This document shows, piece by piece, positions 4,742 through 32,951 of a stretch of DNA of 35,580 nucleotides (the first letter of the stretch is position 1; the number at the start of each line of letters is the position of its first letter). Source of the stretch: Bacteroidales bacterium. GTDB taxonomy: Bacteria; Bacteroidota; Bacteroidia; Bacteroidales; 4484-276. The notes beneath the pieces were generated by a model. The model worked only from the letters and a program-made list of their open reading frames with translations, did no database searches and had not been told where the DNA came from. The translations under genes and the position numbers were made by a program. The stretch spans positions 1-35,580 of the forward strand of contig JAOZMX010000007.1 in NCBI GenBank assembly GCA_029934065.1, read 5' to 3'.

Positions 4742-4985
4742 GGCGTTTAGGCGTTTGGCCTTCGGCCGTTCGGTGTTCGGTGTTCAGCGTTCGGCGTTCA
4801 GGGTTCAGCGTTTTGCCATCTCTCCAGTCGCTTCAGTCTCTTCGGTCGCTCCAGTCCTTCCAGTTCTTCTATCTCTTCGTTCCATCGTTCTATCGTCTCT
4901 CCATCTCCTCGTCTCTTCAGTCTCTTCAGTCCCTTCGCCCTCACTTTTGCCTTTTGATATCAGATTGATGATTAACGATTTCCCC

Positions 4986-5120: not shown

Positions 5121-5303
5121 CACTCCTAACCCCTTAACCCATAATTCTTTCCTTCTGCCTTCAGTCTTCCCCTGCGCCAGAAATTGATCATTGAGTGGTG
5201 AGTGTTGCTTATAGCTTATTTCCATCAAACCCACTTTCCACTGCCAATCACTTTCCACACTTAACTCCTTAACCCATAACTTTTTACTTTTGCCTTCTGC
5301 CTT
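5121..5303. repeat. imperfect direct repeat pair (copies ~5121-5160 and ~5258-5303)
   Basis: CACTCCTAACCCCTTAACCCATAATTCTTTCCTTCTGCC versus CACTTAACTCCTTAACCCATAACTTTTTACTTTTGCCTTCTGCC. Confidence 0.6.
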
Positions 5304-29709: not shown

Positions 29710-30468
29710 TTATTGGCGAATGAGATGAACAACCACAATGCCGGTAACAATCGCGATGATGAAACTGATCATGGTGCCGATGAGAATAAATTCCGCACTT
29801 TTCCGGTTATCGGGATTTTTAACGTCTCCAAAACGGAGTACCGATTTTGCAGCAATAAGAAATCCGATCGCAGCATATTGGTTTACGAGTACAAAGGTGA
29901 GGATAAGCACTCTTTCGAATATTCCGATCCATCGTCCTGCATCCTGAAGCCCTTTTACATCTCCCAACTGATCCTGCCAGTGTTTGGTAAATTTTGTGAT
30001 CATGTATCCCGATGGCCAGATAATGAAAATGTATGCCGTGATCAGAATGAGAAAATTCCGGTTGTTGCCAAGTTCATAAAGAAAATCACCCGTATGAAAT
30101 TCGGGATAAACATAAAAATACCACGCAATAAGAATGGTTGCAAAATGAATCAGTTGATCGGACAAAAATACCAGTATGTTATCGCGGCGATAAGATTTCC
30201 ACAGATCGGTTAAAAAATGCAATACAATCAATGCCGCGGGAATCAGGAAGTTGTGATAGTAACCCGAAAACAAATAGGTCAGCCCACCGATGATCAATAC
30301 GTGAACATATAACGACGGTGCTTTTGCATGTAATTTCTGCCGTTGAAGGATCCAGCTTTTGCGCTGAAGTAAAAAATCACCGATCAAATGAGCGATCAGC
30401 AACCTTAACAAAAGTAAAAAATCATTACCGGTAAAAAATTCATTCATGATCGTAAAGATTTTAGCCAA
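29710..30468 (-). CDS. DUF3307-like integral membrane protein
   Basis: 252 aa, multiple TM segments, N-terminal LLRLLIAHLIGDFLLQRKSWILQRQKLHAKAPSLYVHVLIIGGLTY characteristic of DUF3307. Exact start uncertain (track MAKIFTIMNEF). Confidence 0.8.
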   Translation of the reverse strand: MAKIFTIMNEFFTGNDFLLLLRLLIAHLIGDFLLQRKSWILQRQKLHAKAPSLYVHVLIIGGLTYLFSGYYHNFLIPAALIVLHFLTDLWKSYRRDNILVFLSDQLIHFATILIAWYFYVYPEFHTGDFLYELGNNRNFLILITAYIFIIWPSGYMITKFTKHWQDQLGDVKGLQDAGRWIGIFERVLILTFVLVNQYAAIGFLIAAKSVLRFGDVKNPDNRKSAEFILIGTMISFIIAIVTGIVVVHLIRQ

Positions 30469-30481
30469 TGAAAAATCAATT

Positions 30482-30559
30482 ATAACCCCACAAGGTTATA
30501 ATCACAAATAATAACCCCACAAGGTTATAAAAGCATATTATAACCCCACAGGGTTATAT
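30482..30559. repeat. three 20-bp palindromic units with exact 29-bp period
   Basis: ATAACCCCACAAGGTTATAA at 30482-30501, identical copy at 30511-30530, ATAACCCCACAGGGTTATAT at 30540-30559; 9-bp spacers TCACAAATA and AAGCATATT. ATAACC/GGTTAT arms are inverted repeats (8-bp TTATAACC/GGTTATAA in copy 1). Confidence 0.95.
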
Positions 30560-31230
30560 TTATGGTGAATTAATTGTTCAAATCGCGTCAGGGTCATTTC
30601 AATTTCGTCAATATTTGCCTTTTCAATTCTTTTTCTGACGCCGGGTTGCGAAATGTTCAGGTTTTCAGCAATTTGTTGTTGTGTTAATCCTTCAAAATGC
30701 ATGAGCAATACTTCGGCCTGTTCGATGGACCATCGCGAGATGATCACATCCAGCAGCGCACATTCGACATTCAATTCCCGGTTGACCTCTTCCCATGGGG
30801 TTTTTACCACAAGAAGCCTGTTCTTTTTTTCCATCATGTCGAGCTCCGGCCCGGAATTCCGGTAAGCTTCTCCGTCGCCTTCGCCACTGCTTTTGTCCGG
30901 AAACAGAGAGATGCTGCCGATTCCGACGGCAATCCTTGCATCGAAGGCATTTTTGAGGGTTGTCTTAAAACTGCTTCTTATGGTTGCCCGGATGATGACC
31001 GATGCTTTCAATGCCGATTCGGGGACTTTTAAAACCCCCTGAAAACTATCGCCCCGGAATATCTCAAACGGATAAGCCATTACACTTTTCCCAAGTAGTT
31101 TTTCAACGTTCCCGAAGGATCTTTTCAAGTTATTGAGCAATTTGATCCGTTGCTCTCCTTGCAAACGCGAAGAACCTGCAATATCTCCCGTGATTACGGC
31201 GAATAAATTTTGATTTTCTTTATCTGACAT
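30538..31230 (-). CDS. SatD-like family protein with C-terminal helix-turn-helix
   Basis: MSDKENQNLFAVITGDIAGSSRLQGEQRIKLLNNLKRSF... and C-terminal WSIEQAEVLLMHFEGLTQQQIAENLNISQPGVRKRIEKAN HTH. Track start at 31275 is TTG; ATG at 31230 preferred. Confidence 0.75.
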   Translation of the reverse strand: MSDKENQNLFAVITGDIAGSSRLQGEQRIKLLNNLKRSFGNVEKLLGKSVMAYPFEIFRGDSFQGVLKVPESALKASVIIRATIRSSFKTTLKNAFDARIAVGIGSISLFPDKSSGEGDGEAYRNSGPELDMMEKKNRLLVVKTPWEEVNRELNVECALLDVIISRWSIEQAEVLLMHFEGLTQQQIAENLNISQPGVRKRIEKANIDEIEMTLTRFEQLIHHKYNPVGL

Positions 31231-31271: not shown

Positions 31272-32951
31272 TCAATCGTTTTTCAGTTTTTTATATCTGA
31301 TCCTTTTGGGTCCTTCGTCGCCGAGGCGTTTTCTTTTGTTTTCTTCATATTCGGTGTAGCTTCCTTCGAAATAATAAACCTGCGAATTGCCCTCGAAAGC
31401 CAGAATGTGTGTGGCTACACGGTCGAGAAACCAGCGGTCGTGCGAAATGATTACCGCACAGCCGGCAAAATTTTCAAGCCCTTCTTCGAGTGCTCTCAGG
31501 GTGTTTACGTCAATGTCGTTGGTGGGTTCGTCGAGCAGCAGTACGTTGGCTTCCTGCCTGAGTGTCATGGCAAGATGCAGTCTGTTGCGTTCGCCCCCGG
31601 AAAGGACACCGGTCTTTTTGCCCTGATCTGCTCCGCTAAAATTGAATCGTGCAACGTAGGCTCTCGAATTCATCAGCCGGTTGCCGAGACGAATGGTGTC
31701 GTGTCCTTGCGAGATCACTTCCCAAACGGTTTTTTCGGGGTCAATTTCAGCATGGGCCTGATCAACGTAACCGATCTTTACCGTTTCGCCGATCTTAAAC
31801 TCCCCTTCGTCGGGTTTTTCTTCGCCCATGATCATTCTGAAAAGGGTGGTTTTCCCTGCGCCGTTGGGGCCTATTACCCCCACAATCCCTGCAGGCGGCA
31901 GGCTGAAGTTCAGGTTCTCGAAAAGTAATTTTTCATCAAAAGCTTTTTTAACGTTCACGGATTCAATCACCTTGTTACCCAATCGCGGTCCGTTGGGAAT
32001 AAAAATCTCCAGTCGTTCTTCTTTTTGTTTTACATCTTCGTTGAGCATCTTCTCGTAGGCCGACAGTCGGGCTTTGGCTTTGGCGTGTCGGGCTTTTGGA
32101 GCCATCCGTACCCATTCGAGCTCCCGTTCCAGTGTTTTGTGGCGTTTGCTTTCCGATTTTTCTTCCATTTCAAGCCGCCGGGTTTTTTGTTCCAGCCACG
32201 ACGAATAATTTCCTTTCCAGGGAATCCCCTCACCGCGGTCGAGTTCCAGTATCCAGCCGGCGACATTGTCGAGGAAATAACGGTCGTGCGTAACGGCAAT
32301 AACGGTTCCTTTGTATTGCCGGAGATGCTGTTCGAGCCATTCCACCGACTCCGCATCCAGATGATTGGTCGGCTCGTCCAGCAGCAAAATGTCGGGCTCT
32401 TTCAGCAGCAGGCGGCACAAGGCCACACGCCGCCGTTCACCGCCCGACAGGATACGGACCGGAGTGCCGGGTTCGGGACACCGCAAGGCATCCATGGCAC
32501 GTTCCAGTTTCGAGTCCAGCTCCCATGCATCCTGTTGATCGATCATCTCGGTGAGCTTTCCCTGTCTGTCGATCAGGGCGGCCATCTCTTCGTCGCTCAT
32601 GGGCTCTGCAAACTTTTCGTTGATTGCCTCGTATTCCTTCAGCAAATCAACTATCCCCTGAACACCCTCTTCCACAATTTCTTTTACGGTTTTGTTCTCG
32701 TCGAGGTGCGGCTCCTGTTCCAGTAAGCCGATTTCGTAGCCGGGTGAAAAGGTCACTTTTCCCTGATAAGATTGCTCCTTTCCGGCAATGATATTCAGCA
32801 ATGTGGATTTCCCCGAGCCGTTCAGTCCGATGATACCGATTTTGGCACCGTAATAAAAAGAGAGGTAAATGTCTTTCAATACCTGTTTGTTGGGAGGATA
32901 GAGCTTGCCTACTCCGATCATCGAGAATATTATTTGCTTATCATCAGCCAT
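31272..32951 (-). CDS. ettA: energy-dependent translational throttle protein EttA (ABC-F)
   Basis: 559 aa; two ABC modules GLNGSGKSTLLNIIAG / GPNGAGKTTLFRMIMG, LSGGERRRVALCRLLL / LSGGERNRLHLAMTL, LLDEPTNHLDAESVEWLE / LLLDEPTNDIDVNTLRALE. Confidence 0.95.
   Translation of the reverse strand: MADDKQIIFSMIGVGKLYPPNKQVLKDIYLSFYYGAKIGIIGLNGSGKSTLLNIIAGKEQSYQGKVTFSPGYEIGLLEQEPHLDENKTVKEIVEEGVQGIVDLLKEYEAINEKFAEPMSDEEMAALIDRQGKLTEMIDQQDAWELDSKLERAMDALRCPEPGTPVRILSGGERRRVALCRLLLKEPDILLLDEPTNHLDAESVEWLEQHLRQYKGTVIAVTHDRYFLDNVAGWILELDRGEGIPWKGNYSSWLEQKTRRLEMEEKSESKRHKTLERELEWVRMAPKARHAKAKARLSAYEKMLNEDVKQKEERLEIFIPNGPRLGNKVIESVNVKKAFDEKLLFENLNFSLPPAGIVGVIGPNGAGKTTLFRMIMGEEKPDEGEFKIGETVKIGYVDQAHAEIDPEKTVWEVISQGHDTIRLGNRLMNSRAYVARFNFSGADQGKKTGVLSGGERNRLHLAMTLRQEANVLLLDEPTNDIDVNTLRALEEGLENFAGCAVIISHDRWFLDRVATHILAFEGNSQVYYFEGSYTEYEENKRKRLGDEGPKRIRYKKLKND

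Follow-up and report, generated by a model that had tools for sequence, protein, structure and literature searches.

In a Bacteroidales genome, three palindromic units lie between a satD gene and a gene encoding a DUF3307 membrane protein, and their regular spacing raises the question of what they do there. The initial annotation of the window (the whole stretch of 35,580 nucleotides analyzed here) offered three answers: a regularly phased protein-binding array, an RNA stability or attenuation element, and a proliferating REP-like unit. Our computations establish the array together with its conservation and its association with satD, the SatD fold, and, in specific cases, the covariation of recognition helix and operator. 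The first of the three answers is strongly supported by the fixed pitch, the locus specificity, and the satD link, and, as judged from these comparisons, the array is very probably a cooperative, phased DNA operator bound by SatD.

Geometry of the array

Each unit is an 18-bp dyad of the form ATAACC-n6-GGTTAT (Table 1). Two identical 20-mers (30482-30501 and 30511-30530) and a near-identical third (30540-30559; two mismatches) were recovered, with no match in 100 shuffles, and the exact 29-bp step between the unit starts (30482, 30511, and 30540) was borne out by measurement. The helical repeat of DNA is 10.5 bp per turn. The pitch of 28–29 bp thus corresponds to ~2.7 turns, a non-integral number, so that neighboring dimers would be rotated around the helix; taken by itself, the pitch points to an assembly that winds around the DNA instead of forming a flat row.

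Two details of the initial annotation need adjustment. Unit 3 does contain the stop codon of satD together with the sequence encoding the final SatD residues (NPVGL), but this C-terminus is particular to this genome: satD of the relatives ends differently, in or before the array, and the captured stop codon is incidental. The spacers, described as unrelated, are not wholly so, given that those of the family are AT-rich and often read AATTGatgATT. Elsewhere in the window, an intergenic stretch after an MBL-fold-like gene contains, at 4818-4943 and 5121-5303, a cluster of GTCTCTTCAGTC-like repeats at 9-bp steps and two 48-bp copies that lie 135 bp apart and are 81% identical.

Table 1 Features of the satD–DUF3307 locus (window coordinates).
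Feature	Position	Strand	Description
DUF3307 membrane protein gene	29710..30447	-	PF11750; five predicted membrane segments; ATG at 30447 used as the start, matching the relatives; proposed target
Operator unit 1	30482..30499	.	ATAACCCCACAAGGTTAT; closest unit to DUF3307; 29-bp pitch conserved in relatives
Operator unit 2	30511..30528	.	ATAACCCCACAAGGTTAT; 29-bp pitch conserved in relatives
Operator unit 3	30540..30557	.	ATAACCCCACAGGGTTAT; overlaps the satD stop codon
satD (230 aa)	30538..31230	-	Predicted cyclase-fold sensor domain with C-terminal HTH; PF16264 and Sigma70_r4 matches; similar in profile and fold to class III cyclases and GGDEF domains; proposed array binder
SatD HTH (residues 168-205)	30616..30729	-	Sigma-70 region 4-like; recognition helix SQPGVRKRI
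SatD N-terminal cyclase-fold domain (residues about 10-145)	30796..31203	-	Invariant D16 and G60-D61
ABC-F gene	31272..32951	-	41 bp upstream of satD; same neighbor in relatives; no array between ABC-F and satD

Conservation of array geometry across phyla

From a PF16264 search of the phylum, 70 Bacteroidota satD loci were picked without regard to motif, and the 220 bp upstream of satD were scanned for the best dyad pair at any lag of 18–60, a pair being significant if it beat all 30 shuffles. A significant upstream dyad repeat was present in 49 of the 70 loci, and every lag was 27–29 or 55–58 (two periods), compared with one to three significant loci at scattered lags in each of the control windows (480–700 and 980–1200 bp upstream, inside satD, and 600–820 bp downstream). 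When run separately with other shuffles, the scan returned 45/70 loci with the same lags. No significant array was found in the 220 bp upstream of satD in 21 of the 70 loci; two loci, L132 and L137, have no credible upstream array and carry one directly 3′ of satD, as in the window. Among Bacillota, 12 of 30 loci were significant, the array lying either upstream of satD or shortly after it, at lags of 28, 29, or 57 only. The dyads fall into clade-specific types (ATAACC, TTTAAC, TGAAC, GTTTCA, TATAAG, TATCGG, and ATCTGC) at a constant pitch, and plasmid satD copies also carry arrays that agree with the chromosomal ones. Array geometry is kept across phyla while the dyad sequence changes by clade, and the dyads hold a conserved position beside the regulator gene, as is characteristic of an autoregulatory operator array.

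The reverse search, for two units separated by any gap of 2–32 in about 85,000 species genomes, returned 51 stretches: 38 with a gap of 11 (29-bp pitch), six with a gap of 10 (28 bp), and seven with other gaps. satD adjoins 39 of the 44 stretches of 28- or 29-bp pitch (one satD remnant included) and none of the seven with other gaps. The satD profile itself finds the gene in 37 of the 44; in two further stretches, a satD remnant borders the array (L054, L163) or satD lies just beyond the stored stretch (L080, L161). These matches span Bacteroidota, Halomonas and kin, Nesterenkonia, WOR-3, and Bipolaricaulota. In the Paludibacter MAG with the remnant (L054, L163), the array precedes what is left of satD: its initial ~33 codons lead straight into a DUF3307-like end, as though satD and DUF3307 had been fused by a deletion.

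For five pairs of 28- or 29-bp pitch (L057, L059, L066, L070, and L082), the fetched locus contains no satD; the gene occurs elsewhere in the genome of L059 and was not found in the genomes of the other four. Two of these pairs are in Puteibacter, one lies between hisA-like and hisF-like genes of a Chlorobiota MAG, one is from Verrucomicrobia, and one is in a Clostridia genome with satD at another site. They possibly reflect a related regulator or chance.

Domain structure of SatD

The initial assignments of SatD (PF16264; 49.3 bits, cut-off 29) and DUF3307 (PF11750) both exceeded the Pfam cut-offs; by its Pfam score, the window protein is a member of the family that includes S. pyogenes satD and that of the S. 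mutans sat operon. The N-terminal part of the SatD profile matches class III cyclases (Ma1120, E 3e-7) and the C-terminal part matches HTH proteins. When the AlphaFold2 model (pLDDT 94, pTM 0.92) was compared using Foldseek, adenylyl/guanylyl cyclases and GGDEF domains were retrieved (best E 1.6e-4), with a TM of about 0.4 over the whole query because the N-terminal domain alone matches. D16 and G60-D61 are invariant in 32 diverse SatD members, suggesting that SatD retains a metal/nucleotide site. Class III cyclases usually carry a transition-state Asn/Arg pair. In the stretch that we take to be the SatD counterpart of this position, there is no invariant Asn or Arg, and most members read SGxxLD; the absence of the catalytic pair makes the domain likelier to be a sensor than an enzyme. 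SatD shares with class III nucleotidyl cyclases and GGDEF proteins (Ma1120, CyaC, PycC) the predicted fold and two metal-binding aspartates (D16, D61), but differs in that the domain is fused to an HTH and the Asn/Arg pair is not among the invariant residues.

A close parallel among the known systems that we compared is NrdR, which also joins a small nucleotide-sensing domain (a proposed role in the case of SatD) to a DNA-binding domain and uses tandem boxes at fixed spacing beside the controlled operon. NrdR consists of a zinc ribbon and an ATP-cone and recognizes two boxes, usually 15–16 bp apart and three turns centre to centre (PMC12051234, PMC12176259), with binding that depends on the helical phase of the boxes (PMC12051234). 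The two proteins are non-homologous: SatD combines a cyclase fold with an HTH on 2–5 units at a 28–29 bp pitch, and neither the zinc ribbon nor the ATP-cone was found in it by the Pfam scan.

No DNA binding, operator, or ligand is assigned to SatD in the open literature searched. In S. pyogenes, satD has been reported as essential for the strains examined but is nevertheless an accessory gene, being present in 178/249 genomes and absent from about 29% (PMC11323703), as one might expect of the regulator of a harmful partner. No convincing match to an anti-phage family was returned by PADLOC, and no SatD was found in the phage records searched.

Recognition helix and operator

An acidic residue at recognition position 200 of SatD is associated with ATC[GT] half-sites in 8/8 loci vs 3/32 others (motif-blind loci; Fisher 2e-6, a figure from which kinship is not fully removed); the eight loci share 40–64% N-domain identity. 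L132 and L137 have near-identical recognition helices with a change from K to Q, and their operators change from TACAACC to TACAAGC, which is the same C-to-G change that distinguishes the ATAAGC (Q) class from the ATAACC (K) class. In these specific cases, SatD recognition-helix changes track operator changes. A partial Mantel test of operator vs recognition helix, given the N-domain, was significant with motif-selected loci included and non-significant when restricted to motif-blind loci (r 0.04, p 0.16), so that only the residue-level cases, and not covariation in general, are separated from phylogeny; this equivocal test is not our main evidence.

Both this motif-blind result and the five right-pitch arrays without satD in the fetched stretch would be compatible with an operator for a factor other than SatD that controls satD–DUF3307 operons. 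We regard this as improbable, because the operator differs by clade yet stays at satD, the SatD recognition helix changes to match, the cassette is shared among phyla and, on a 3.77-kb plasmid, brings an array of its own, and an HTH is present in SatD itself.

DNA or RNA

Acting in RNA, the array would place three hairpins between co-transcribed genes and stabilize, process, or attenuate the satD–DUF3307 transcript. The transcribed strand does fold well (z -6.1), although this is expected of any palindrome array, and two of the three window units have a sense-strand G-U instead of a mismatch. Over more sequences this preference does not persist: non-Watson–Crick stem cells on the sense strand comprise 5 G-U vs 9 A-C in the family and 13 vs 31 in the upstream arrays, and the preservation of sense-strand pairing expected of attenuator or stability hairpins is thus not apparent. 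Hairpins need no strict pitch with freely changing spacers, and no Rfam family matches the array. In many relatives, the array overlies the promoter upstream of satD, so transcription would miss most of the units. The -7 element of one clade overlaps the last unit in its right arm, 12 bp short of the start codon, so that every unit would fall upstream of any RNA. An RNA element at this locus is accordingly very unlikely.

For the upstream arrays of Bacteroidota, overlap with a promoter is supported: 22/51 loci contain the -7 element TAnnTTTG within the array region (6.4 expected, and 7 on the antisense strand), a count in keeping with repression by occlusion. No clear promoter was placed in the array of the window, where a sigma-70-type promoter scan remained at chance level.

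A single genomic site

When searched genome-wide and in relatives, the unit proved to be confined to the satD–DUF3307 junction in its own genome, and this junction is kept across relatives. No other array was found in the 3.64-Mb genome, in which allowing ≤2 mismatches added four isolated single look-alikes. Exact units are present in only 8 of 197 genomes searched (own included), and seven of those eight belong to the family of the window. In the window and in 7/7 family relatives with a satD ortholog, there are 2–5 units, always at a 29-bp pitch and always between satD and DUF3307, with unit sequences that vary symmetrically (ATAACC/GGTTAT or ATAGCC/GGCTAT) and spacers that drift. Three relatives (G004, G009, and G010) lack both satD and DUF3307 and, judging by the pattern, the exact units as well; satD, DUF3307, and the array are all present in G008, the sister of G004. 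The only satD in G005 is divergent and has no significant array. A REP-like or other dispersed repeat that landed here by chance, which the palindromic units and their variable copy number (2–5) bring to mind, is refuted by the absence of further genomic copies and by the same junction in every satD-ortholog relative, across several genera, with a fixed pitch and a position that persists though the sequence diverges.

Neighboring genes and the plasmid cassette

In the window, the ABC-F gene (EttA-like, as identified by reading its sequence) probably drives satD. Since satD lies so close behind this gene with no array before it (Table 1), the array can act on DUF3307, and it probably does not act on the start of satD itself. 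ABC-F is directly 5′ of satD in the family of the window and in Lentimicrobium (L061) and Salinivibrio (L201), which are distant lineages. With satD of the family behind ABC-F and the array after satD, the constant target would be DUF3307. The gene after satD matches a DUF3307-seeded profile in 109/115 loci with a gene found, although this iterated profile is permissive and may take in membrane proteins of other kinds; membrane segments are predicted for each of the 109. The DUF3307 protein of the window matches a PHROG membrane-protein family, and the annotation of a Ralstonia jumbo phage lists a DUF3307 protein (PMC8504454).

The two-gene satD–DUF3307 cassette is also found, with its own array, on plasmids (L196-L201), one of which is E. 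coli pEC34A, with a length of 3770 bp and five annotated genes. In Pseudomonas fragi pPFL, the cassette sits among toxin–antitoxin-like genes. The plasmid records annotate satD merely as a hypothetical protein.

A proposed SatD switch

We propose that each dyad would be occupied by a SatD dimer, bound through the two C-terminal HTHs of the dimer, and that contacts between adjacent dimers would fix the 28–29 bp pitch. A nucleotide-like ligand may bind the N-terminal nucleotidyl-cyclase/GGDEF-fold domain and loosen or tighten the assembly. In most relatives, where the array lies over the promoter of the satD–DUF3307 operon, SatD would be an autorepressor, and it would control, probably by repression, the DUF3307 membrane protein. 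We infer binding by SatD, its dimers, cooperativity, a ligand, and repression rather than activation. More tentatively, SatD–DUF3307 might be a mobile nucleotide-sensing switch, in which a harmful membrane protein is silenced on the phased array until a nucleotide signal (stress or phage) releases it, as in addiction or defense, and in which the operator code evolves by single recognition-helix changes; we consider this combination possible but doubtful.

The array architecture appears to be family-wide and is undescribed as far as the open literature shows. It provides a function hypothesis for two families of unknown role, SatD and DUF3307, which the cassette on a small E. coli plasmid makes directly testable. 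An operator geometry that is conserved across phyla while its sequence changes is, moreover, a natural data set for the rules of DNA recognition.
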